In this document: in pieces, positions 5,815 to 64,000 of the stretch
How positions within the stretch are numbered: position 1 is the stretch's first letter
How the letters are laid out: every line of letters starts with the position of its first letter
Assembly (NCBI RefSeq): GCF_011397635.1
Contig: NC_064753.1
Span: 32,016,322-32,080,321, forward strand
Length of the DNA stretch: 64,000 nt
Direction of reading: 5' to 3'
Source of the DNA: Epinephelus fuscoguttatus
Lineage: Eukaryota > Chordata > Actinopteri > Perciformes > Serranidae
Position numbers and translations under genes: made by a program
Notes under the pieces: model-generated
The model's database searches: none
The model's input: the letters and a program-made list of their open reading frames with translations, nothing else
What the model was told of the DNA's origin: nothing

Positions 5815-8800
5815 ATGCGAATCATGTCTGCCTTAACTCCTGCTCTCTTCTGTGCAATGATATGTTGTTCCTTGACAGAAAAGACAACAAATGTTTCAAC
5901 TCCAAACATCATCATAATGCTCATGGATGACGTAAGTTTTTACCCTATGATTTTTGTGTGTTTTGCCTTTCTGGGTGTGATGTGTATGTATTAACTCTCC
6001 ATTTTTCCCCTCTGCTCTTCAGATGGGTTGGGGGGACTTGGGGGTGTTTGGCCAGCCCTCTAAAGAGACCCCTAACCTGGATGCCATGGCTGCTGAGGGG
6101 ATGCTACTTCCAAATTTCTACACTGCGAGTCCACTCTGTTCCCCTTGTGAGTCACTGTCAGTGTTGTAATATAGAACCTGAACCAGCAGTTCCTGTTTTA
6201 CAAGATGTTAGATGAGCTTATTTTCTGTCTCTCATCAAGGCTTCAGCTTTCTATTTCTATACATTTGTTTTTATTGTCAAGATTCAAGATTGCTTTATTT
6301 GTCTTTAAAGGCTGCCACTTCAAAATACACACGTAGAAACAGACATAAAGTGCATTCAAATGCATGCAACACTGCCTCTCCTTTTACACCTTCCTTTTGT
6401 CATTAGTTTAGGAGATTCGCTGGTAGAGGGATAAATAGTTTTTATACTTATTCTGGTATCATGAGAGGGAGAGGACTTGGGAGGGGTCAAATTTTTTTTG
6501 GCCATAGACCTATCAAGAGCCATTTTTGCCCCCCCAAAAATAAATAAATAAATAAAAACTGTCTGGAGCCACAAAACATTACATAAAAGTAATACAGCCT
6601 TTTAAATTGAATTTAGCCTATCAAGATTAGTAATAGATCTAAATGAGCATTCATTATTATGTTTTTACACAAGGTGGCTGTTCTGCAGTGCACTATTTTT
6701 GATTACTTGGTGCTTTAACTTTGCAGCATTGCTGATGAAAGCAAACAAATTTGTCTGTTAAATGTGTTTTATTTGAGCATGTCGACATGTAACCACATGA
6801 ATGTATCTAAATACACATATGTGCAGTTCGAACGTATGCTCTTTTTCTTTTCTTTTTTTCTGAAGATATACTAAACAAGGCACGGTGGTGCAGTGGTTAG
6901 CACTGTCACCTGACAGCAAGAGGGTTCCTGGTTCAAACACAGGGTGGGGGAGTCCTTCTGTGTGGAGTTTGCATATTCTCCCTGTGTCAGCGTGGGTTTT
7001 CTCTGGGTACCCTGGCTTCCTCTCACAGTCCAAAGACATGCAGGTTAATTGGTGACTCTAAATTGTCCGTAGGTGTGAATGTGAGTGTGAATGGTTGTCT
7101 GTCTCTATGTGTCAGCCCTGTGATAGTCTGGCAACCTGTCAAGGGTGTACCCTGTCTCTTGCCCAATGTCATCTGGGATAGGCTCCAGCCCTCTGCGACC
7201 CTCAAGAGGATAAGCGGTTACAAAAATGGATGGATGGATGGATTTGGAATCCACAGCTAGCATAACTAGGAAGACTCAAGACTACTGTGGCCATTGCTAG
7301 TGATGTTTTTAGTGGAAAAGGCGCTAGACCAGACATATGACACACATTTTAGTTGACGAAATGTGAAATAATTTTTTTACATCGATGTATAGGCTACGCA
7401 TTTTCATAGTTGAAGGATGTAAGAATCACTGTAGGCCTTCAACAATAAATTAAAATGAAAATGTTGAAAAAATAATGATTATTCATGTCACATTTAATTT
7501 TCTGTCAAAGCCACAGGGAGCCACTGCTCCAGACCCTAGCCTTTTAACTATAGTGCTTTTAAAGACAGTAGTTAGTGGAGTTTGCATGTTCTCCCTGTGT
7601 CAGCATGAGTTTTCTCCAGGTACTCCAGCTTCCTCCCACAGTCCAAAGACATGCAGCTTAATTGGTGACTTTAAATTGCCTGAACATGAGCGTGAATGGT
7701 TGTCTGTCTCTATGTGTCAGCCCTGCAATAGTCTGGCAACTGGTCCAGGGTGTACCTGGCTCTTGCCCAACGTCAGCTGGGATAGGCTCCCCCAGCGACC
7801 CCTAACAGGATAAGCAGTTACAGAAAATGAATGAATGAATGAGTTAGATGGGGTGATGCTCCCTCACAGTGATTCTGTGCAGGAAAGCAGGAATTGTTAC
7901 GTCACTGTTGTTAGAAACCTTTTAACTCTATGTTGGTAATTATCATGTTTTTTAGGTAAACTTAATTGAAGGTGTATATACATGTAAAATGCTTTGGATT
8001 CAGAATAAAGTTTGTGAGCATTTTGTTCATGAAAAGTTATACAACCCTTGTGGATGAACTTTAGAAATACCAGGCAGTCAAGCTGAAAAGCTGCTTTTCT
8101 TCTTGTTGAATTGAAATGTGAAGGTACAGAGTTTCACCTGACAGCAGTGATTAGAGTCCATAATTCAGTTGAATCACAGCCATAAATAGCAGTTGGGTGT
8201 AGAAAGGGATATTGGTCTTGGTATTTACAGAAAACAAATGTGTTTGCCAGTAAAAAAGCATTTGAAGGACCACCATTCAGAAATCTTAATGATTTTTTTT
8301 TCTGTCATTTTAATGACAGCCAGGGCCGCACTTCTCAGCGGGAGGCTCCCTGTCAGGAACGGTTTCTATACCACAAATGGCCACGCCAGGAACGGTACAC
8401 TCTCAGTATATCCTTACTGTGCAATTTATCCAGCTGCAAATAATTTCTTGCAGGTTTTCTCATTACTTCGTCCATAATGTACAGTTTGCAATAAAGTCCT
8501 GGAAAGTTCTGTACACTAAATTTTGACCCTTTTTTACAGCATACACACCACAGGAGATAGTGGGAGGAATCTCTGAGGATGAGATTTTAATACCCCAGAT
8601 GCTGAAGAAAAAGGGCTACGTCAGCAAGATAGTTGGCAAGTGGTGAGCTCTTTATCTTTCTGTAATCCAGGTTTTTAGTGGTTTCTGAAGTTTTAGGTTA
8701 TGTTGATGTCGACAGGCTGTGGTGGCTGTGATTGACATCTGTGGAATTGATTCCATGAATTAAAGTTTGTTTGCATGTTTTAACCAGTTTATTACTTAAC

Positions 8801-11800
8801 TTACTGATGATTATTTTCCACAGTATACAGCAATTTTATACTAAATGTTTTAATGTATTTTTCCAACCACTGATGTGCATCCATTTCTGTGTGGTACTAA
8901 AATCTTCCCTTTGTTGCTCTCTTGTAATGTCCCAAGCCATGATTGCTTATTTTAAAGGTTAAGTGTGTAAGATTTAGTGGCATCTAGTGGTAAGGATTGC
9001 AGATTGCAACCGGCTGAAAATTCTCCCTGTTAGAATACCTTCAGTGTTCACTGTTCAGGAAGCTTTTACTGGGCCCTGAATTATCTGCGGAGGTCTCTTC
9101 CTCTCCAAAACAAACAAACCTGGTGATATTAACTTGTGAAAACACTGAATTAAGCAGTTTTATGTTTATAAATTTATATTATAAATTATTATAAATATTA
9201 TATATTTATAAATTATTATTATATATATATAAATTATTATATATAAATATATATTATAAATTTTTATAAATTCGTGTTTCTCCAACACTGTTTGACATGA
9301 TGGAGACGGGCCACTGGGCCAGCACTTGCTAATGTGATCTTTTTTCTCTTTTATTTTAATCAAACAAAACCCCAAATTCATCAACAGACACTCAAGTATT
9401 TATACAAAGAGACATGGAAAGTGCAAACAAACATTTAACATATTAATACTGGCCCTTAATTAACAGACTTTACTGTGACATAGACATGTAAAGGATCTAT
9501 ATAGTTTTTTTTTTTCACTTGGGGCCACATTATCTCCGTCTAAAGCCATGCCCATCAGCACCTTCCCTCCTGGTGCACACGTTGGACCATAACCTGAGAG
9601 CAATCATCACAGTTTACCGTGCAGCACCAGTGGGATCTGCAGTTGCAGGTGCTCATTACCTCCATGCGTCTCTCTTCCACCCTTAGGCAGCATTCATGAC
9701 ACAACCTGTGGATATACCTGTGGTAACTTAAGATCCAGGGGCTGGTTGCACAAAGCACCATAAACTCAGCCATGTTGCGGTTAACAAACTTTAAGCAATT
9801 CCTTAAGTTTAAGACCAAAATATGGAGAAAAACTTAAGGAAACCTGAAGGAGAAGACTCAAGGATGTTTTGTGCAAGCAATTTTATTGAAAGGAATCCTT
9901 AATTTGAAATTAAAAGAAAATCTTGGCTTAAAGTTCTTTATGCAACCAGCCCCAGACATTCAGGAACCACTACAAATACTCAATAAAGCAGTTTGATGTT
10001 GAAAAGTCAGTGTTTTTCATACACTCTCTTCGCGGAGGGGCTGTTAACCACAATGGCCCATACGAAACAGTGGATTGCTCTGTCTAGAGCCAGTGTTTGG
10101 TTTGTCCTTTCTGGGCCACTGTAGAAACATGGCAGACTCAATGCGTGGGGACACACTCCCTATGTACATACTTATTGTATTCCATTTATGACAATATATT
10201 CCCCTAAATCTTACACACTGCACCTTTAAAAGACCTTCACAATATTACCACCAAACACACAACTTTAATGTGATAGATTAGGTTGATAGATAGAAACTGT
10301 TGTGAAGTAAATGGAAATCAATGAGAGCCTAAATGTAGTAACTGCAATCAGACATCAAAATAAGTATGTTGTGCTTTTGAAAATGATTTTTAGTAGCACA
10401 GGTTTGTTTGATCTGCAGTAGTGGTCTACATTTAAATGCACAGAATGCTCCTTCAGTCATCTTAATCTGTCAGTGTGTGAGTGCACTTTGTTTGTCACTA
10501 AAGGCATCTGGGCCACAGACCGCAGTACCTGCCTCTGGAGAAAGGCTTTGATGAATGGTTTGGTGCACCAGACTGCCACTTTGGCCCTTACAACAGCAGC
10601 TTCAGACCTAACATCCCCGTCTACAACAACTCTGAGATGCTTGGCAGGTAGTATCACACACGGGCACTCAGATATACATAACAGCAGACAGATACAGATG
10701 CTGAAAATCTATAAAAATCTTCTTTCCCCCGTGACTCAGTGGAATGGTTTGGCTGGCTGCTCCTCTGGATGAGTTGAGTGTCTCCCCTCCTCTTCCTTCT
10801 CTGTACCAGCTGTGCTTGTGTATTCCATTTTCCGCCCATTTGTTTTCCCCAAAACAGCCATATGTGTATTCAGGGTCATTGGAACTGGCAGCCGGGCGTG
10901 TTTTTCGCTTAGCCGTGGGTTTAATCAGCGCTGCATACCTGGGCCCTGGACAGACATACGCACGCACACACACACATAGACACGCATGCACACAGACACA
11001 CACGCCCTCAAGAGACGGCAGGTTGCGCTGGCTGTGTGCGAGGACACCTGGAGGAAGTGAAGCGTAAGAAAGAGAGATGCCTGTCACTGCTTCTCTGCTC
11101 GCCGCGCTACGCTTCAGCAACACCTCATAACAGTTCCCTCTGCTCAGCTCTGCTGAGACTTCCCAAATATGTCTTTCACCAAAATCTCCTGCAAACACAG
11201 TCCGCAAGAGGGAAATTTGCCTCCGTTGTCTTAATGATATTGTCTGAGGTAGTTTCGGTCAATTTAGAGGCAGATTGAAAGCCCTGACAAAACAATCAGG
11301 TCGTTGTGAAAGAGTCATTTTATGCGGTTGGATAAGCAGAGGAGGAATGGCACAGTGTGGCCTCGGCAGGTATTCAGATGGGATGATAGTTAACTAATAA
11401 TGAAGGTTTATTTATTGAATCATGTCAACCCACTTGTTTTTCAGATACTATGAGGAGTTTAAGATTGACAGGAAGACGGGAGAGTCCAACCTAACACAGA
11501 TGTACTTGAAGGTAAGTTCAGGCCCACCTGTCCTTTCGGAGTCTGTCTCAGATGATACAACACTTTCAGAGGAGCAGAGTGTGTCAGGTACTCCCTAGAA
11601 TATGAAATAGAGTACAAGTTTATTGTCCACCAGAGTGGAAAATCAGGTTTGACTCACCAAAATATAAAAGCACAAAAACATAAATCATCTATTTAACAAA
11701 TTAAAAGCGCAATTAATTTGATCATTACCGTGCTTTTCACCAGCAGAAGTGGATTGTTGACTTTTGCGCACGCTCGTCTTGATTATCTCTGCTGCCTATG

Positions 11801-15523: not shown

Positions 15524-18500
15524 ATGTGTGTGAGAAGGAGAAAGTCTGGATGTGCAGATAGATCATGGAATGCATTGCAAAGCCTTTTCTGTGGCTGGTT
15601 CTGTGGATACAGAAGAAAGAGGGAATTCATTTCAGTGCTAAGGAGCTTGTGTGTGCGAATGTGTGTGCGCCTGTGTCTGTATGTGTGCTGGCTGCCGATA
15701 GGAGCACAGCGGCACATGGCGGTGCAGCTGCAGAGGCCTGATAGTGCTATCTGATTGTGAGCGTGCCGTCTCCCTCTAAGGCTCGCTCAGGAGAGAATGG
15801 AACGGAAGATCAAGGATGACAACGAAAAAATGTCATTTTATCTGAAAATAGTTCAAAGTTTATAAATAAAATAAAGCTTTTCAGTGGGACTGGGAGAAGG
15901 AGATAAAACACCAGCTCGCTCCAGCTCCAGCCGCCTGCTTGCCCGGGCCTTGTCCTCTTCCTACTTTCTCTCCTCTTTTTCTTCGCTCCTCCTTTTTCGT
16001 TTCCTCCCCCCCCAAAAAAAACTAATTTAGAAAGAGAAGCATTTTGGAGGCTTTATAATAAACCTGCAAGCAGAGATTAGAGAGGAGACTGGAGAAATGT
16101 ACCTCTTTCCTACATGTGTACACACAGCAACACATACAAACATCCTATCATGACTGTGCATTCTTCCCTTGTTCACAGTCATGAAGAAAATCCTGCGTAA
16201 AGGAGCGAGCTTGTGGTATTCCTGAACTATAAAACTGTTCATTCCTGATTTGTGAACTTGTAATTATTTGGCACTGATGGCAAAAAGAAGCAAAATCATT
16301 GAGGAGTAATTCTTAGAAACAGTGGTGGAGATATACGCAAAATCATGACTACATTGTTTGTGGTAAGAAGAACAGCACCTGGTAGCACTGCCATTAAAAA
16401 ATGTGTGTTAGTCCTTGAAAGGACACTTTGCCAGTCCTCATTCCCTCAAAGCTCCTCACTTTTAATGATCCTGACTCGCAGGTTGTGTGAAATGGCTTCT
16501 CATACTGTAGATAGTGAATGGAGCTTTTTATTTCTTTGTCCTTATACAGGTGAATTACCAGTTGGCCAGTGTGATGGACCTGTTCACCACCAGTCTGGTT
16601 CTGGCTGGTATCACCCCTCCCGATGACAGAGCCCTGGACGGACTGGACCTGACACCTGTCCTGCTTAGCGGCATGCATACACACCAAGACAGGCAAGCAC
16701 ACACACTAGCTGTAATCTCGAAGAACAGATATCTGCATATGTATGCAGAATCTGTAGGCAACCGGACAAGGTGCTGATATCAGAAGCACTGGTTTCCGTT
16801 TGTGGAGTAGTATTGACCAATCAAAGAAGTGCATAGAGGTGGAACAAACTGGCCAAAATGCAATCTCAGAACACATCAGCTGCAAAATGGCTTTTTAAAT
16901 TTTTCTGCATTCATATGTGTATGAATAAACAATATTTGTTTTCAGAGATTAGCTGAAATGATTGGCGCATGAAAGAGGAAGTCTTGGTCCGCATGTCTGC
17001 TGGTTATACAGGAAACCCCAAAATACTGACACATTCAACCAAATTCTGTTTGAAGCTTACATGGCACATCCTTGCATACTGCACCCTACACCAGTACAAG
17101 ACAAACCCGCTAGTGCTGCAGTTATTTGAACCCTGCTGCATATGATAAGGCTTAGTCTCTATATACAGACTCTACATTCAGTGAATGTAGAGTCTGTAGG
17201 CAAACCCCGGAGATCTTGCCTCCGGAAGAAGAGCGGAAGAGCCCTGGTTTCCGGTTGTAGGCTGTTTGTAGTCCGCGTGATATTGATCAATCACGTTTGA
17301 GCCGGCTGCAGTTGTTGCCAGGTTAAACGCCCCGTGCGGTGAACTAATGAAACATAATTGGCGTCACTGCAAACTCTGAATCCATTGCAAAGGTTCAGCA
17401 TATTTACTTATTATATATAAACGGAAGTCGGAAACGGAAGTTCGCCTCCTCCGCCCAAATCAAACCGGAATGCCAAAAAATCAGGGGTCTGCCCCCAGAG
17501 GCTGCATCGCCATCTGCCAGAAGTCAGGCGCCGAATACAGCCGATGGGTTCCGAGAATGGATAAGGCTTAACGTAGCAATCAGCCACTTTAATCATTTGC
17601 ACAAAGACGTGACTTACCTAATAAGTGACAAGACCCTCACCCTTACCCATAGCTATCTAAATGCTAGCATAGCATTTTCTTAAGAGGTTCCACTTTCGGA
17701 TAAAGGGGCAAAGGGAGCTGATCTTGTTGGTATAGTTGTGATGTAGCTCGTGGGTGAGTTACATAGCTACTCCAGCTGAAGCAATACCTACTCGGAAAGA
17801 CTGACCATTTCCCCTAGAGGCTTATTGTTGTCAGACTGATAGCCAAAGGGTTTCAAGATTGCATTACTTGTTATAGGATTTTACCACTTGGTTAGAGATT
17901 GTTTGGCGTTTGTGTCCTTTACTTTGGGGCAAAAGTCCCCTTCATTTTTTAAACGCTTTTGAGCGGAACAGCAGTGTTAATTTTGTCATGCAAGAGGACA
18001 ACAAGGAGGCTTTTTGAGCCATGCTAACTCTGAGGTTTTCCATCGGTACGTCAACCACTTTGACCAAACGATCTCAGTAACTACGGTAAGTATTACAGTG
18101 GAGTTTTGTGTAGACTTTCATGTCATGGATGGTCCCATTTCCTCTTCCTCTTGTGCCATCATAAGGTCAGAATTGTATTTTGTCCAATACCTATGACCAA
18201 ATACCTGCAAAACTAATGATATTCCCATCAACCTCAACAGGCCGATCTTCTATTACCGAGGAAATCAGCTCATGGCCGTGAGGCTTGGACAATACAAGGC
18301 CCACTATTGGACCTGGAGCAACTCATGGGAAGAGTTTAAAAAGGTAAGATTCCCTTTTAATCCAGCAACTCTGTGCCATCTCTGTTTCCTCAGTTCCTGA
18401 TTTGCACTGCCACATCCTCCCTCTTTGTCTCTCCTAATCTTACTCAAACACACAAACACTTTCACTGTTGGTGTTATCTTGAAAATGGCTCATCAGTTGA

Positions 18501-21757: not shown

Positions 21758-24700
21758 GAAGGAGGGGGCAGATCTCCAGGGGGTTCTGGAGGAGTGAGTG
21801 TGACTCAATCAGGCTGTGATCACTGCCAGGCACACGAGAATGGAGTCAGGGAGCAGGAGCGAAGGCATGGAGAGATGAAGGGGGGAGTGGGGGTGGAGGT
21901 GGAGGTGGGGGTGAGGGGGAGCATAAGGAAGAAAAGTCCTCTATTTTGCCAGTGACTTCGACCCTGTTATGATGCACCAACAGTAGCTGCACAAATAACA
22001 CAACAGATTGGAAGACAATATGCATATAGGCCACACTACAATGACATTCAGCATTGAGCTCAGAGTAGCAGGTGGCTGCGAGCCTAAACATCCAGATCTC
22101 TTTAGCTGAGTGTGTTGTATGTCTTTGTTTTGAATTGCACATGATAAAACACACAGAAAAGTCCTTGTCTGCATGTGTTTCAACTGAAACATTTAACAGA
22201 ATCAAATACAAGCCACTGTAAATGACCAAAGACATTGCAGAGAGCAAAAAAATTACCAAGGGTTGTTGAGAAAATTGGATGGGAATATGTTTTTCTTTTC
22301 TTAGGTTTCACTTGTGGTGCATAAAAACTAAAAGCAAACACTGTGTTGAGTTTCTCAGTAGAGAAAGTCTGAGCTTTGCTGCCAAGACAGGGCAGCTCTG
22401 CTCTTTCCTGAGGGGGGGTTGCAGTCTTATTCCAGCATACATACAGAAGACAGGGCCACTGGACTCAGGCTGGGTGATAAAATGTTCTTAAAGGGATAGT
22501 GCACCCAAAAATGAAAATTCAGCCATAATCTACTCACCCATATGCCGACGGAGGCTCAGGTGAAGTTTTAGAGTCCTCACATCACTTGCGGAGATCCAAG
22601 GGGAGAGGAGGTAGCAACACAACTCCACCTAATGGAGGCTGACGGCACCCCAGATTCAAACATCCAAAAACACATAATTGAAACCACAAAATATCTCCAT
22701 ACTGCTCGTCCGTAGTGATCCAACTGTCCTGAAGCCCCGACGTAAAAAGCTGTTTGGAACAACGTCATTTGAACTTTTTTTTTAGCGTCATTGTAGCCTG
22801 TAGCTGTAACTGCTTCTCTGTGTGCTACGCTCACGTGTGCGCGAGACATGCTTTTGCTGGTCTCGCGCGAATCTGGGGCGCCATAAGCCTCCATTAGGTG
22901 GAGTTGTGTTGCTACCCCCTCTCCCCTTGGATCTCCGGAAGTGATGCGAGGACACTAAAACTTCACTTGAGCCTCCATCGGCATATGGGTGAGGAGATAA
23001 TGGCTGAATTTTCATTTTTGGGTGCACTATTCCTTTAATGGTGTAAAATTAAACTGTAGCAGGTGTGCAGAATAACATCCAATAACTTAAAAAACTGAAG
23101 AGAAAGAAAACTAATCTGAAGGGTTCATTTTTCCTCCTCAAATGTTATCAGTCTATAATCTAATCCATACTCTGCTTGAGTTACATTATGATACACATAC
23201 AAGATCATACACATCTGTAGGTAGTCAGCTAATATTACTTATGTATGTAACAATGTAATTATGAGCCAGTTTGGAGATTGTTCAAATGAAACTATATTAG
23301 CATCAGTGTGTTTCTGTTCAAGTAAAAATTCAAAAAGGTTTGTGTCTTTTTGTGCGATTTCCCCTACAGGGCATCAACTTCTGTCCAGGTCAGGAGGTCC
23401 CGGGTGTGACTACCCACGAGCAGAAAGAGCACACAATGCAACCGATCATTTTCCACCTGGGACGGGATCCTGGGGAGAAGTTCCCCATCAGGTTAGTTCC
23501 TTGGAAACTTCAACTCCGCGTACAGCTGATTTCCAGTCAGAGGACAGAGGTGAGGTGAAGGGAAAAATGAGAGAGGGAGGAGAGTGAAGTCAACCAGGAA
23601 CAAATGAAGAGATGCTGGAAAATGAACCGGAGAGGGGTGAGAATAGGAAAGCAGTTTGCCTGTCGGTAGCACAGACTGTGTATGAGATCAATGCTGATTC
23701 AGTGGCATGAAAAAGAAGGCGTCGGATTGATCCGCTCAGCCAGAGCTCGCCTGATTACACCCACCTCTTTGTGATTGCAAACAGCTCCTTAAAGATCACT
23801 ATCTGGTCCTCAACCCTCCGGTGCACCGCTGCAGGTTAAAATTGCAAGATAAATTGTTCAGGTCTAAATTGAGAGCGAGTGCTGTTTAATGGAGTTTTGT
23901 ATGTCTACGCTCAGAGGAGAGTTAAGAAACGGCAAAAGGATAAGGACGCCAGAGGACACAGACAGTAAAAGCTGAACTAAGACTATTACTAAATAAAGCT
24001 GGGTATATACCGCACCATTTTAGAAATGTTGTGGGTTCCAGTCGTCTGCAATGTAAAGCCAAAGCTCGTGATTTATGTGTCACACTGTGCTGGCTGCCTG
24101 ATCATCAAGTCGTGACCTGAAATAAAAACATAAAGTTTTTTTCTCTGTTTTCCTTTTTTGATACCCTATTTTCTTTGAATTAAATTTGTGTTAACACTGG
24201 ATGGATAAAAATATAATTCAAGCTCAGAATTATTAAGAATTACTATGTATTTGTATCAAGATCAAAAAATCAAGTAAGCTATGAGTTCTTGAGGAATTGA
24301 GATTGATTTTTAATTTTGTGCTCGGCTTAATTTTTGTTAAAAGGATGACAGTTTATTTTATTTTACGTACTTAATGTTAATCCGGTGACATGAGCTGCTT
24401 TGTTTGTTGTGTATATGTATTAAATTGTGTATAAGTGTGTACGACTGTATGTGTGTGGACCTCAGGAAGAATAGCCAGTGCTTTTGCTGGTGCTAATGCG
24501 GATCTGACGAAAAGAAAAGACAGAAAACACAATTGTGAATTAAGATTAGTTTGAAGGATTCGAGGCAGGTAGAAGTTTGTTTACTAGCGGATCTTTTAGA
24601 ACAGAAAGTATTGACAGGCAGCTGAAGATCGTCGGCTATTTCCTGACGTTTCCCTCGTTCGTATCATTCGTGATAGGAGGAGGAGAGAAACTGTTGCCAC

Positions 24701-37900: not shown

Positions 37901-40900
37901 AGTCTCAGACTTCAGACTTAAAGCAACATGAAAAAGAATTTGCCTTATTGTTGTGACATGCAGTGGTGGAATATAGGCTAACTCAAGTACTACAGAGTAC
38001 GATTTTTAAGATCCTTCTACTTTACTGGAGTATTTGCATTTTATGCTACTCTACACATCTACTCCATTACATTTTGGTGGCAAATGTTGTACTTTTTTTC
38101 TTCACTACATTTATTTTGACATCTTTAGTTACTTTGCAGATTAAAAATATTCATATAAAATAAAAAATTAACCAATAAAATATGATTTATTATAATAGGT
38201 TAAAGGAATAGTGCACCCAAAAATGAAAATTCAGCCATTATCTACTCACCCATATGCCGTCTACTACGGACGAGCAGTATGGAGATATTTTGTGGTGTCA
38301 ATTATGTGTTTTTGGACGTCGTTGGAGTTGTGTTGCTACCTCCTCTCCCCTTTGATCTCTGCAAGGGATGTGAGGACTCTAAAACTTCACCTGAGCCTCC
38401 ATCGGCATATGATTGAGTAGATAATGGCTGAATTTTCATTTTTGGGTGCACTATCCCTTTAATAAACCAGTGGTTCCCAACTGGTCCAGCCACAAGGTCC
38501 AGATTTCTCCTCAGTCATTAGTTCAAGGTCCACACAGTTTAATATATTCAGCGTCATACTTACGTTTTGCCATATCAGAGCTAGTTTGCTGTCTCTGTTG
38601 AGTATCTGTTCCATTATTCACTCACTTTACAGCAGGAAACAGCACTTCAAAATAAAAGCTCTGTGGTGAAAATGCACTGTACTTCATAATAAAGTGTATT
38701 TTTTTACAAACTTGACATGTTGGTGAGTCACTTGCAGTGACCCATGACACACTTTTGGACCTTCACCCACCAGTTGGGAACCCCTGGGTTAAACTACCCA
38801 GCAGCAAGAAATAAAATTAGCTCCATCGTTACCAGCTGCAACATTTAATACAGTGATACATTACACATTATTTTAAAATGGACCATTCTGCAAAAGAAGT
38901 ACTTTCACTTTTTGTACTTAAAGTATATTTTGATGCTACCACTTTTGTGCTTTTAGTTAAATAAGTTTTTCAGTGCATGGCCTTTACTTGTAAAAGAATA
39001 TTTCTACACTGTAGTATTACTACTTTTACTTGAGTAAAAGAAATGAGTACTTCTTCCACCACTGGTAACATGCCAGATGTAAAGTACAAGGAATAAAGAG
39101 AGCCAGCTTATCCTGTGCTGTTTCACTGCAACATTGTCACCCCAACATCCAAAACTTTATTCTCCATAAGCAAACATGCATGAAAATCTATTGAGGAGCT
39201 CAGAGAGAAGCGTCTGTAGTTCACCTGTAGGTGTTATATGTCTAATTACAGACACAACTCATGGTTCCAGGACAGGATGCTGCTCTGTCGCAGCATTTTT
39301 AAGTGACAGCAGCTGCAGCAGTCGAGTTCAGTCAGGGGGAGTTCCTATAACCTCAGGCCACTGTGGGATGACTGACTGACTGAGACAAAGACAAGATGGC
39401 CGGGCCTGTCTGAGTGTACAGTGTCTGGACTTGCTTTCGTTTGTACTGATATGATCTGTCCAGCGCTTCTAATGGAGAGCATCAAACACAGGGCAGGCTC
39501 ATTTACTGGCATCGTAACGACTAGCTGCGAACACACAGGGCGCGTTTTAACCTCCTCTTTCATTGTTTGTGGGTGTTTGCACGAACATGTTTGTGTGTGA
39601 GACAGAACAAGAGGGATTCAGTGTAACACAAGTCTGTGTGAAGAAACATTGTCTTTTAACAGCTGTATCTCCTTACAGGAAGTGGGCCTGAAGCTGTGAT
39701 TCGCACTCAGACTTACAGCTTCGGGGCAATGTAACATTATCTTAAAGGGAGAAGGTCAAAGAAGATTAAATTTCATTTTATGTATTAGATGGCATTAAAA
39801 TGAAGAGCTGCCTTTGGCCTCATGCAGCTCACTTAGAAACAGATAAATATGTACATACACTCATGAAAGGAGGACAGATAAGTGTCTTTTTCAGTGTCTG
39901 AGTTGTCTTCAATCATAACAGGAAATACAGTTTTTACTTTCCCTTTGCTTCAGTCTCAAGCTTTTCATTGATGTAAACATACAGTACATGTTCAACTTAT
40001 TTTTCTCTATTTTGAATTGTCTCTGTAGGCGCTGACCTTTATATCATTTGTGTGCTTTGCGGCATCCCGAGCGGCAGCCTTTGTGACGGTTCCACTGTTT
40101 GAGTTCCTGGCTGCTCTCTTCTTGCTGTTTGCTTACTCCACCAAATTCAATGAGAGGTTTAAAGGCTTCCTCTGGCCTCTTATGGTGAGAGCAAATTACA
40201 AATTAAACTGATACACGTGCTACTGTACATAACAAAAAAATGTATTCCAGTGATAAAAGAAGAACACGGTCAGATAAAGTTATATTTTCCCTCTGAATCA
40301 TGGTGTTTATTTTCCCTCAAAGGATTTTATGAGATGTGTGACAGCCTCCATCATCTTCTTCATCATCTCCATAATTGCAGTGTCCAAATATGCAGATGGT
40401 TCCTCTAAGGCTGCTGGGGTAAAGTCGACTTTTCAACCATCTCATCATAGCCCATCATGATTTGTGTATTACTAAGTACAACCAACACACTTTGCACTTG
40501 TTCAACACTGTACTGATATCAAATGTCCCTCTTTTCACAGATATTTGGCTTCATTGCCACCATCGTTTTCGCTTTAGATTTTTACCACATTTTCAATGAG
40601 CTGGCCGCTTTCCTAAAGCAAGGAGGAGGAGAGTCCAATGATGAGCCATCAAGGCAGCAAGGTAATACACCAAATAAAAATCTGATACGAGGCCAAATAA
40701 GAACAGCTGTATTAAATAAAATACTGTATATGTTTTTACTTATGGACTTTATTTTTTTTAAAAAAAGAAATGTCTTTACATAACTTAATATGTGAGACAT
40801 GAAATGGCTCAAGTTCCATATTTTGGGATGTTTGTTAACCTCAGGGAAAGGCAACCTGCAGCTCCAGAGCCACATGCTCCCTGTGGCTTTGAAAAAAAAA

Positions 40901-43900
40901 ATGTAAATGAATAACGGTTGTTTTTTAACATTTTAATTTTCATTTATCATCATTATAAACCTTAAGAAATTCTTTAAAAATGTGCAGCCTATACAACAAA
41001 TAAGAAAGATGTTTTAACATTTCATCAACTAAAATGTGCATCATACATTTATAGCCTGGCACCTTTTCCTCTAAATTTTGCCAAACCTCAACAGCAGTAG
41101 CTCGTCTTGAGTATCCCTATCTAGGCTAGCTATGCATTCCAAATCCAAAAACAGGAAAAGTCTTGGAGGAAAATAAAGTATTAAATAGGGCGTGGACGTT
41201 TTTTTTTTTTTGTTTGTTTGTTTTTTTGTTTTTTGTTTTGTTTTTAAGACCAGTGCTGCAAAGTTAAAGTACCGAATAATCATAAAGAGCCACCTTGTGT
41301 TAAAACACATTAATAAATGCTCATTGAGACTTGATAATAATGTTGATAGGCCAATATAGACTTAATAGGCTGTGTTGCCTTCAGATAAAGCTCAAATATG
41401 TTGTGCTAAATGTTGGTGTAGCAATTAGCACTGTCCACTGCCCAGCTGGACAACCCGTTCCCATTCCCAGATTGTCAGTAGGTAGGTAGGTAGGTAGGTA
41501 CTTTATTAATCCTGAAGGAAATTGCATTTTCAGCTGCTCAGACATAAACATAAAAACACAAATCATACACACAGTGCATAAAAACAAAATAAAGTGCTAG
41601 AATAAATAGTAATAAAAATAGGATAAAAATAGCATGACAGTGAGATGTGCAAATATGCAAATGTGCAAATCCCCCCTGCAACTCATCTCCCTCCCCTCTC
41701 CAGTGTTGTGCTGAACAGTCTAATGGCTCTGGGCAGGAACGACCTCCGCAGCCTGTCTGTGGAGCAGTTCAGTGAGAGCAGCCTCCCACTGAATGAGCTC
41801 CTCTGCCCCATAGTCAGTTTATGCAGTGGGTGGCAGCTATTGTCAATGATGGAGAGCAGTTTGGAAATAGTTTTCCTGTCTGCCACCGACACCACAGACT
41901 CCTGCTCTGCACCGATGACAGAGGTGGCCTTCTTGATGAGTTTGTCCATCCTCTGTGTGTCCTTCTGTTTGGTGCTGCCTCCCCAACGCACCACCCCATA
42001 GAAGAGGGCACTGAATACCACAGGCTGGTAGAACATCTGCAGCATTCTCCTGCAGACATTAAAGGATGCCAGTCTCCTCAGGAAATACAGCCTGCTCTGC
42101 ACCTTCTTGTAGACATGATCAGTGCTACCCAGCTTGTCATCCACCTGCAGCCCCAGGTACCTGTAGGAGGCAACCACCTCAATCTCCTCACCGCTGATGT
42201 TAACAGGCAGAAGAGATGGGTGGCGCCTCCTCAAGTCCAGTACCATCTCCTTTGTCATAGTAGTGTTGAGCTGCAGGTGGTTCAGGTGACTCCAGGTGGT
42301 GAAATCCTTGACAAGGGACCTGTACTCTCCCTCATCCCCCCCTCTAATACACCCGACGATGGCAGTGTCATCAGAGAACTTCTGTACATGACAGAGTTAG
42401 GTGTCATGCCTGAAGTCCGCTGTGTAGAGTGTGAAGAGGAGGGGGGGCAGTACAGTCCCCTGTGGCACCCCCGTGCTGCTGGTCACTGTGTCAGATGTTA
42501 TGGACCCAAACCTGACAAATTGAAGTCTGCCAGTGAGGTAATCCGTGATCCAGGACACGAGGGCTGGGTCAACCCACATGGTGGTGAGGCTTTAACACAC
42601 CCATCAGTGTCTGATAACACTGTGCAATGCACCCTTTAGCATCTGTATGAGATGCGCTGGGCTTTCAACTAAACCCTTTTTGCAGAATACTAGACACTGA
42701 GAGCAACTAATGTAGTATGAAGAACAAGAACGTCCACTAAGGGAGGTGATCAACACGGGACTTTCACCCAAGAGACTGCTGTTTGTGTCCTGTGAGAAAC
42801 CAAAAGTCAATGTCATTGCCTCAGCAGTAGCTTTGTTGCCTAAACCTAGAGTAGTTTTATTTGGAAAACACACTGTACACATGTACGAGCGGATACTGAC
42901 AAATCCAAAACTGACACTAGAGGATAATTTAGAGTGTTGGCGTTGAAATCGTAGGGCCACTGACCAAGCTGCCATATTTGACGAGTTAGGAGTGAGAACT
43001 TGTTGAGCTGGATGGATGTCTTATTATTAAGGAACAATACATCAATACCTCATATATAGCATTTATGTTATATATACATATATGTATACTGTATTTGTGT
43101 GTATCTGTAAAAGAATGTTGGATGCATGAAAAGCACCACTGCTGACCACTGAAAAGCACTGCTACATCTTGAGATGTACCCATACCATATCATACCATAC
43201 AAACCCTCTGCCCCTCTCTGGAGTTAAAGGATCAGTCCAACCAAATTTACCTCAGGCAGTATGCATGCAGAGAGTTTTGTTTTTGGTTGCCCAGGTTTTG
43301 AGATACAGTATCTGTCTCTGATATAGAATTTAACTTGTGTCCCTGATAAATGATAAACGAGCTGTCATATCTTTTGTTTTTTGATCTTTCGGGAGTTTTT
43401 TGTTATTTGGTTAAACCCACCCTCTAAACTTGTTATGTTAACTTCAACATTTGATCTGCAGTTTTGTGCATCCTGAACAGATGTAAATAAAATTACTGAG
43501 GCAAACTGTGCTCATGTGACAGACTGAAATTTAGACACAAGATTGGGTTTGTACTTCAACCCCGCTCTTAGGTTTTACCTTTTATTCCAAACTAAAGTGC
43601 ACAAGTTACCACAGAGACATATGCTTAAATATTAGACAACCAACTTTTATGTACACTATATGCCTCCTTCACTTGATATTAAGATAAAGGGGTACTTTAT
43701 TTATCTCCATGGGGGAAATTAGCAGTTTGTACTGTTTCTAACTGTTCGTACATAACTGCAGTGCCAAAAAGTCTCATGGCAGGTTTGTTTTCTATTTTTA
43801 AATCATCATTTCCGGTGCTTTGAGTGACACAAAGGAGATACTTTATATAGCAGTGGTTACACTAGTTTCAGAGAGGGACATTTTGAGACCTCAGTGAATA

Positions 43901-48628: not shown

Positions 48629-49662
48629 CAGAGGTGGGACCAAGTCATTAAGTCTAAAGTCTTTGCACTCAAGTCCCAAATCAAGTCCCAAGTCTTAAAC
48701 TCTGAGTTTTGAGTCTCGACAAAGTCACCAAACGTAATGCCATTTTAACAACATAGTAATACCGTTAGCTAAGCTTTAGCTTGCTATGCTAATATTAGCC
48801 TTGACTTACTGTTCTTTGTGCAACTTTAAATGTTGGACAAAGCTGGAAGTTGTTGTGTCATTGTCTTTAATTTTCATCCCGCATGTTTTGCATAGTCATT
48901 CATACATTTCTGCTTATCCTGTTGAGGGTTGCGGGGAGCTGGAGCCTATCCCAGCTGACATTGGGCAAGAGGCAGGGTGTGGACAGGTCGCCAGACTATC
49001 ACAGGGCTGACACATAGAGACAGACAAACATTCACACTTACACCTACAGGCAATTTAGAGTCACCAATTAACCTGAATGTCTTTGGACTCTGGGAGGAAG
49101 CCGGAGTACCTGGAGAAAACCACGCTGACACAGGGAGAACATGTAAACTCTGCACAGAAGGGCTCCCCCACCCTGGACTCGGACCAGGAACGAACTTCGA
49201 ACCTCTTACTGTGAGGTGACAATGCTAACCACTGCACTACTGTGCAATTCTTTTTTTTGTTGACCACCATGTAGTTTTTGCACACAAATAAAATTATCTT
49301 TGGTAGCGTAACGTTCTTCATGGTTCTCTCCTGCAACTTGACTGAATGCTGTCAGACTGGTTTCAAACAAAGTGGATCTGACGAATTAAGTGTCAACTTG
49401 CTGGAAATGAACAGCGCTATCGTACGTTGAATCAAGAAATAAATCAATTTGTGGCTCTCTTTTTAAATAATCTTTGGGTTAGGGGGAAGGTATCAAGTAT
49501 TTTGAAGTCAGGCTCAAGTCTAAGTGAAATCACAAGTCATGGGTGTTAAAGCTCAACTTAAGCAGCAAGTCTTTTTTGATTTTGTCAAGTTGAGTCTTAA
49601 GTCATCAAATTAGTGACTTGAGTCTTGAGTCCCAGTCATGTGATCTGCGTCCAGAACCTCTG
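48629..49662. mobile_element. hAT MITE with exact 8-bp target duplication
   Basis: Flanked by perfect TGGAATGG repeats (48621-48628 and 49663-49670). The ends are CAGAGGT and ACCTCTG. The body is full of AAGTC/CAAGTC words on the left and GACTTGAGTC on the right, as in the fish 'caagtcaagtc' hAT repeats. A SINE (48897-49245, minus) is inserted in it. Confidence 0.83.
48897..49245 (-). repeat. tRNA-derived SINE, full length (copy 3), nested
   Basis: The reverse complement begins GCACAGTAGTGCAGTGG (box A) and carries a GGTTCGAAG box B, the same body as 6879-7243, and a short ATG-rich tail. It lies inside the hAT MITE 48629-49662 and so inserted after it. Confidence 0.8.

Positions 49663-50546: not shown

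Positions 50547-64000
<13,454 letters not shown>

Follow-up and report, generated by a model that had tools for sequence, protein, structure and literature searches.

The window, by which we mean the whole 64,000-nucleotide stretch of DNA that was analysed, contains two copies of a short interspersed element, each flanked by its own direct repeat. Copy A, 405 bp long, occupies 17155-17559 on the forward strand between exact repeats of GATAAGGCTTA at 17144-17154 and 17560-17570. Copy B, 303 bp long, lies on the reverse strand at 52288-52590 between exact repeats of TAGGAAAACTA (as read on the forward strand), at 52277-52287 beside the 3' end of the element and at 52591-52601 beside its head. 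The limits of both copies come from their end-to-end alignment and from nhmmer. The two copies align over their whole length, with 278 identities in 298 aligned positions; copy B is missing 60, 44 and 3 bp and copy A 5 bp, and the losses from copy B, which include the second arm of a palindrome described below and a 44-bp inner stretch, leave both of its termini in place. The translation of 16550-16684 matches N-acetylgalactosamine-6-sulfatase (chain 4fdi_A, E 2e-13), which places copy A downstream of a GALNS-like exon and probably within an intron.

Copy B interrupts another interspersed repeat. On the left, its flank aligns with 8953-9027 (84% over 75 bp); on the right, the sequence from 52604, just after the duplication, aligns with 10093-10170 (77% over 81 bp). 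As neither of these other repeat copies spans the exact empty site, the arrangement supports insertion rather than proves it. The interrupted repeat (52150-52690) has two further partial copies, at 8950-9027 and 10093-10231; the segment 8950-8989 of the first recurs in inverted form at 10192-10231 in the second (85% over 40 bp). The window also holds another interspersed repeat in three copies that are 83-84% alike (6880-7240, 7575-7841 and 48896-49245). The repeats are in keeping with the teleost host implied by the first-pass annotation.

The first-pass annotation had claimed that exact 11-bp target duplications, different at each insertion, flank independent copies with a shared start and end, and that two such unlinked insertions define a real transposing unit. 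The data bear this out. Across flanks that took in 30 bp of outer and 3 bp of inner sequence at each element end, 11 bp was the longest exact repeat common to both, in copy A and in copy B alike; of 20,000 pairs of 33-bp stretches drawn at random from the same window, 250-600 bp apart, only 10 shared 11 bp or more, a chance of about 5e-4 per copy. The duplications are thus exact, equal in length and above chance, and copies A and B, aligned end to end, represent two separate insertions of a real transposing unit with identical ends. The duplications are indeed two distinct sequences, yet their difference is not complete: read in the orientation of copy A, each closes with YTA and has an A as its next base (n = 2), a slight shared part. 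The element opens with GTCTCTATAT and ends with GGGTTCCSAGAATG; the head shows no match to the other terminus, CATTCTSGGA, and AGAATG and, on the other strand, TATAGAGAC directly adjoin the duplications.

Upstream of copy A and on the same strand, 16716-16823 holds an old, diverged relative of the element that is colinear with positions 2-139 of that copy; counted to 16877, the end of a weak further match, it lies about 280 bp from copy A. A search with a profile built from the two copies detects 16736-16823 (E 6.2e-4), followed by a colinear but weak match at 16836-16877 (E 2.1). Local alignment of 16700-17144 with copy A scores 25.5, against 17.0 for the best of 500 dinucleotide shuffles; with copy B, where a good deal of the aligned region is missing, the score is 17.0 and is equalled in 1 of 500. 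The alignment with copy A opens at the second base of the element, which gives independent support for its start, and the 60-bp region absent from copy B is present in the relative, so that this gap is a deletion in B. Copy A may lie in or beside this older relative. A search for a target duplication of the relative, in which left stretches ending at 16708-16723 were compared with the downstream DNA minus copy A, yielded no clear candidate: five overlapping matches of 9/11 fell at two places (16948-16950 and 16871-16872), while 26 of 100 shuffles gave as many places and 60 of 100 gave at least one.

Near the head of copy A stands a perfect palindrome of 35 bp (17164-17198, forward strand), with 17-nt arms that are 100% complementary, 9 bp from the element terminus. 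Folded as single-stranded DNA it forms a 16-bp stem (z -7.4, with none of 200 shuffles as good). The palindrome reported by the first-pass annotation is therefore real and perfect in copy A, but it is whole in that copy only, copy B having lost the second arm. The head of the old relative (16725-16755, forward strand) forms a hairpin in the corresponding position (z -5.1, equalled by none of 200 shuffles), with the letters of the stem partly different and the pairing largely kept, and from this we conclude that the hairpin is a feature of the head of the family and not an accident of copy A. In the alignment of the two stems 13 pairs are invariant, two of these being present in A alone owing to a gap, two pairs are altered on both sides with pairing kept, and pairing is lost in one; paired cells make up 96.7% of the total, a share that drops to 56.7% or less once the partner is shifted by 1-3 columns. 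The count of paired changes was matched in 132 of 500 shuffles of just these two sequences and by itself is weak proof, and repair between the arms can also keep them alike without selection. The other end of the element has no hairpin in either copy, its fold being equalled by 149 of 200 shuffles in one and 187 of 200 in the other.

The base composition of the copies suggests their relative ages. The observed/expected ratio of CpG is 0.92 in copy A and 1.20 in copy B, against 0.36 in the window, and 6 of the 20 differences between A and B are transitions in a CpG context. The stretch of the relative (16715-17144) has a ratio of 0.33. Since A and B are CpG-rich whereas this stretch is CpG-poor, the two copies look like much younger insertions than the old relative. 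Both CpG-rich copies (17155-17559 and 52288-52590) contain CGGAAGT-like words, which we presume to resemble ETS sites, and on both features the element may have promoter-like activity.

The features that would place the element in a familiar class were also sought. The first-pass annotation had described it as having neither inverted ends, nor a tail, nor pol III boxes, and the tests support each of these absences, for the pol III boxes in the sense of none above chance. The best inverted 25-mer within the outer 60 bp was equalled in 15 of 300 shuffles for copy A and 262 of 300 for copy B; thus, of the features of a strict MITE, the element has the shortness, the lack of a gene and the target duplication, and terminal inverted repeats are absent. 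The best direct 25-mer match between the 3' terminus and the head was 17/25 in A (1 of 300 shuffles) and 14/25 in B (55 of 300), and this likeness, weak in A and not convincing in B, was rejected as a pair of terminal repeats. On either strand, the best pol III A box had one mismatch in A (198 of 300 shuffles) and two in B (300 of 300), and the best B box two in A (83 of 300) and three in B (246 of 300). Neither copy has an A-rich or short-repeat tail in either orientation. No tRNA was found, and at the gathering score no Rfam family matched anywhere in the window; at E up to 1, the regions 16650-17650 and 52200-52700 gave two chance-level matches only, one of mir-2070 to the palindrome (19.3 bits against a cut-off of 95) and one of a bacterial leader (13.6 bits against 37.8). 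Among all 13 stop-free pieces of copy A of at least 30 aa, Pfam found no domain at its cut-off; the two sub-threshold matches, to PspC (E 0.15) and DUF1899 (E 0.074), are read as chance, and a coding remnant in copy A was rejected. Patterns for the head and core had no hit in viral and genome contigs, and whole copy A had no match among phages and plasmids; these are collections of prokaryotes and viruses and say nothing about fish.

We favour the view, to which we give a probability of roughly 0.55, that the element is a short, non-autonomous DNA transposon with two dissimilar ends, one of a family that a DDE transposase supplied in trans mobilises; this enzyme would make long duplications in the manner of MULEs. 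What argues for insertion as DNA by such an enzyme is the combination of equal, exact duplications, preserved ends, the inner deletion in copy B and the lack of any mark of RNA copying. The loss of inner DNA (60 and 44 bp in copy B) with both ends retained is usual in DNA transposons. That the intermediate is DNA and not RNA, that the enzyme is of the DDE type and from a MULE-like group, and that the hairpin has any role at all, are steps that we infer. In the proposed mechanism a transposase encoded elsewhere would recognise ends that differ from each other, a plain one and one whose nearby palindrome can form a hairpin, excise the gene-less element and insert it at a cut staggered by 11 bp, the repair of which would leave the 11-bp duplication; the nearest known mechanism would be that of the MULE/IS256 group. 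Against this reading stand the small number of readable duplications (n = 2), the equal length of which may be chance, the lack of a clear duplication at the old relative, the absence of terminal inverted repeats and the fact that no autonomous partner was seen in the window.

The same duplications could have arisen through reverse transcription. Copies driven by a LINE can also carry duplications of 11 bp, a length within their usual range, and the element might be a SINE-like retroposon, transcribed from an external or atypical promoter, whose 3' end a LINE enzyme recognises and reverse transcribes at a nick. That end would perhaps be the hairpin end, with the element read on the minus strand of copy A, and the 11 bp would reflect chance or a near-fixed stagger of the LINE endonuclease. 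In this reading direction each duplication starts with TA and is preceded by a T (n = 2), and a putative LINE relic is present in the window. We regard this explanation as unlikely, if a serious one, because the pol III boxes are at the level of shuffles, RNA-family matches at cut-off and tRNAs are absent, a tail is missing whichever way the element is read, both copies are free of truncation at their ends, and the duplication length is the same in both copies (11 bp, n = 2). The LINE relic, named from its translation, lies on the minus strand at 41683-42396, within 41500-42396, and its 3' end consists of CTAC repeats that, by eye, are unlike either end of the element; the relic was accordingly rejected as a partner. 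Pfam names a piece of this relic ALKBH8_N (E 2.9e-8), perhaps because the model picks up LINE ends.

Two foldback elements are also present in the window, at 22485-23039 (arms of 170 bp, 93%) and 38200-38465 (arms of 60 bp, 95%), both ending in TTAAAGGRATAGTGCACCCAAAAATGAAAATTCAGCC, and they look like a common TTAA-type fish MITE. The first of these was considered as a long-ended partner and set aside as unrelated, its ends being TTAAAGG... and the longest exact repeat in its flanks 6 bp.

A hairpin close to one end recalls a further group of elements. In the available text of PMC3627910, Helitron2 elements combine a hairpin near the end with short asymmetric inverted repeats, one of them terminal and the other set about 20 bp in from the opposite end, and show paired changes in the stem, as here; a Helitron2-like or other HUH-type element would move by transfer of a single strand. 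Read on the minus strand, the 5' CATTC...GAA of our element partly matches, in inverted form, a site 20 bp from the hairpin end (8/11 by eye), and a 25-nt comparison at that offset gives 15/25 in copy A, a geometry close to that of Helitron2 (PMC3627910); some non-autonomous Helitron2 copies in Chlamydomonas even carry duplications of 7-19 bp, according to the same excerpts. This inverted match is, however, not clearly above chance by the shuffles given above, and the hairpin is confined to one end of our element, whereas Helitron2 has hairpins at both. Helitron2 insertions whose 5' boundary coincides with that of the consensus have no duplication (PMC3627910), whereas copies A and B are complete-ended and flanked by 11 bp, and the 5' end of our element lacks a T. 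We reject Helitron2 on the duplications and consider an origin of this kind very unlikely.

Measured by the length of its duplications, the element stands closest to the MULE/IS256 group among those described. The excerpts of PMC6446971 give MULE target duplications as 8-11 bp, a range that includes the two exact 11-bp duplications seen here, and report that some MULEs lack inverted repeats: Curupira is listed without inverted ends, and VANDAL elements lack them or have short, degenerate ones. Our element resembles these in having no matching terminal inverted repeats. Curupira and VANDAL are, in contrast, autonomous, with a transposase and, where the excerpted text gives a length, with 9-bp duplications, whereas our element has no gene, duplicates 11 bp and bears a hairpin at one end only. 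Its host is moreover fish-like and so belongs to a group in which MULEs are disputed: vertebrate MULEs are listed in the parts consulted of PMC4746887 and PMC9004415, while those of PMC6446971 hold that vertebrate MuDR reports in Repbase are probably misidentified and need re-evaluation. According to the available portion of PMC3706591, hAT, Kolobok, P and MuDR elements make duplications of 4-10 bp, below the 11 bp found here, and this, like the doubt over vertebrate MuDR reports, counts against the reading that we favour.

Two other systems share parts of this pattern. The excerpts of PMC3627910 describe MCi-2 of the fungus Mucor circinelloides as having duplications of 11 or 12 bp, no recognisable inverted repeats and no known class, all of which it has in common with our element; it is nevertheless large, with a shared 3' part of 6 kb, encodes Fanzor, and has duplications that follow ATAATTNNNN(N), a pattern found at neither copy A nor copy B. 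Dada elements are DDE transposons with zebrafish among their hosts, and Dada-U1 and Dada-U6 lack terminal inverted repeats while having short sub-terminal ones, as excerpted from PMC3706591. There Dada is said to duplicate 6-7 bp and to target small RNA genes, whereas copy A lies near a GALNS-like exon, copy B lies in another repeat, and no RNA family matches the window at cut-off; on the duplications (11 bp against 6-7 bp) we reject Dada. A vertebrate lineage of DNA transposons outside the described superfamilies, with a conserved hairpin head at one end and a plain terminus at the other, a constant 11-bp stagger and a hairpin selected for its shape and not its letters, is a further reading, and we think it improbable.

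The suggestion of the first-pass annotation that the family is undescribed or poorly described does not follow from the features that are absent, as MULEs without inverted repeats are in print (PMC6446971, in excerpt). Nor is the combination of 11-12 bp duplications with a lack of recognisable inverted repeats new, having been seen before in the unclassified MCi-2 (PMC3627910, likewise in excerpt). Two flanked copies are too few to settle the class of the element or to show novelty. Under the Repbase rule, as given in the available text of PMC4455052, the classification of non-autonomous elements rests mainly on their terminal sequences and target duplications, so that placing this element would take a comparison with a library of ends. 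The family is likely to be named already in Repbase or Dfam under the name of a fish species, in whatever class, and this would be compatible with any of the readings above. Common fish repeats are usually catalogued, and two good copies and an old relative within 64 kb suggest a common repeat. The family did not appear among the matches listed in the literature, as judged from titles and the openings of abstracts; six words of 14-16 letters from the element were absent from the literature searched, to which we attach no weight since a consensus is seldom printed.

The finding is a sound but small observation, and its meaning depends on the duplications of further copies. If these vary in length, the family would be SINE-like without the usual promoter, and odd in another way. 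Should many copies all turn out to carry an 11-bp duplication, the family would need a transposase whose presence in fish is disputed, given the call to re-evaluate vertebrate MuDR reports (PMC6446971, in excerpt), and a passenger element with known ends would then serve as bait for finding the relative that carries the enzyme.
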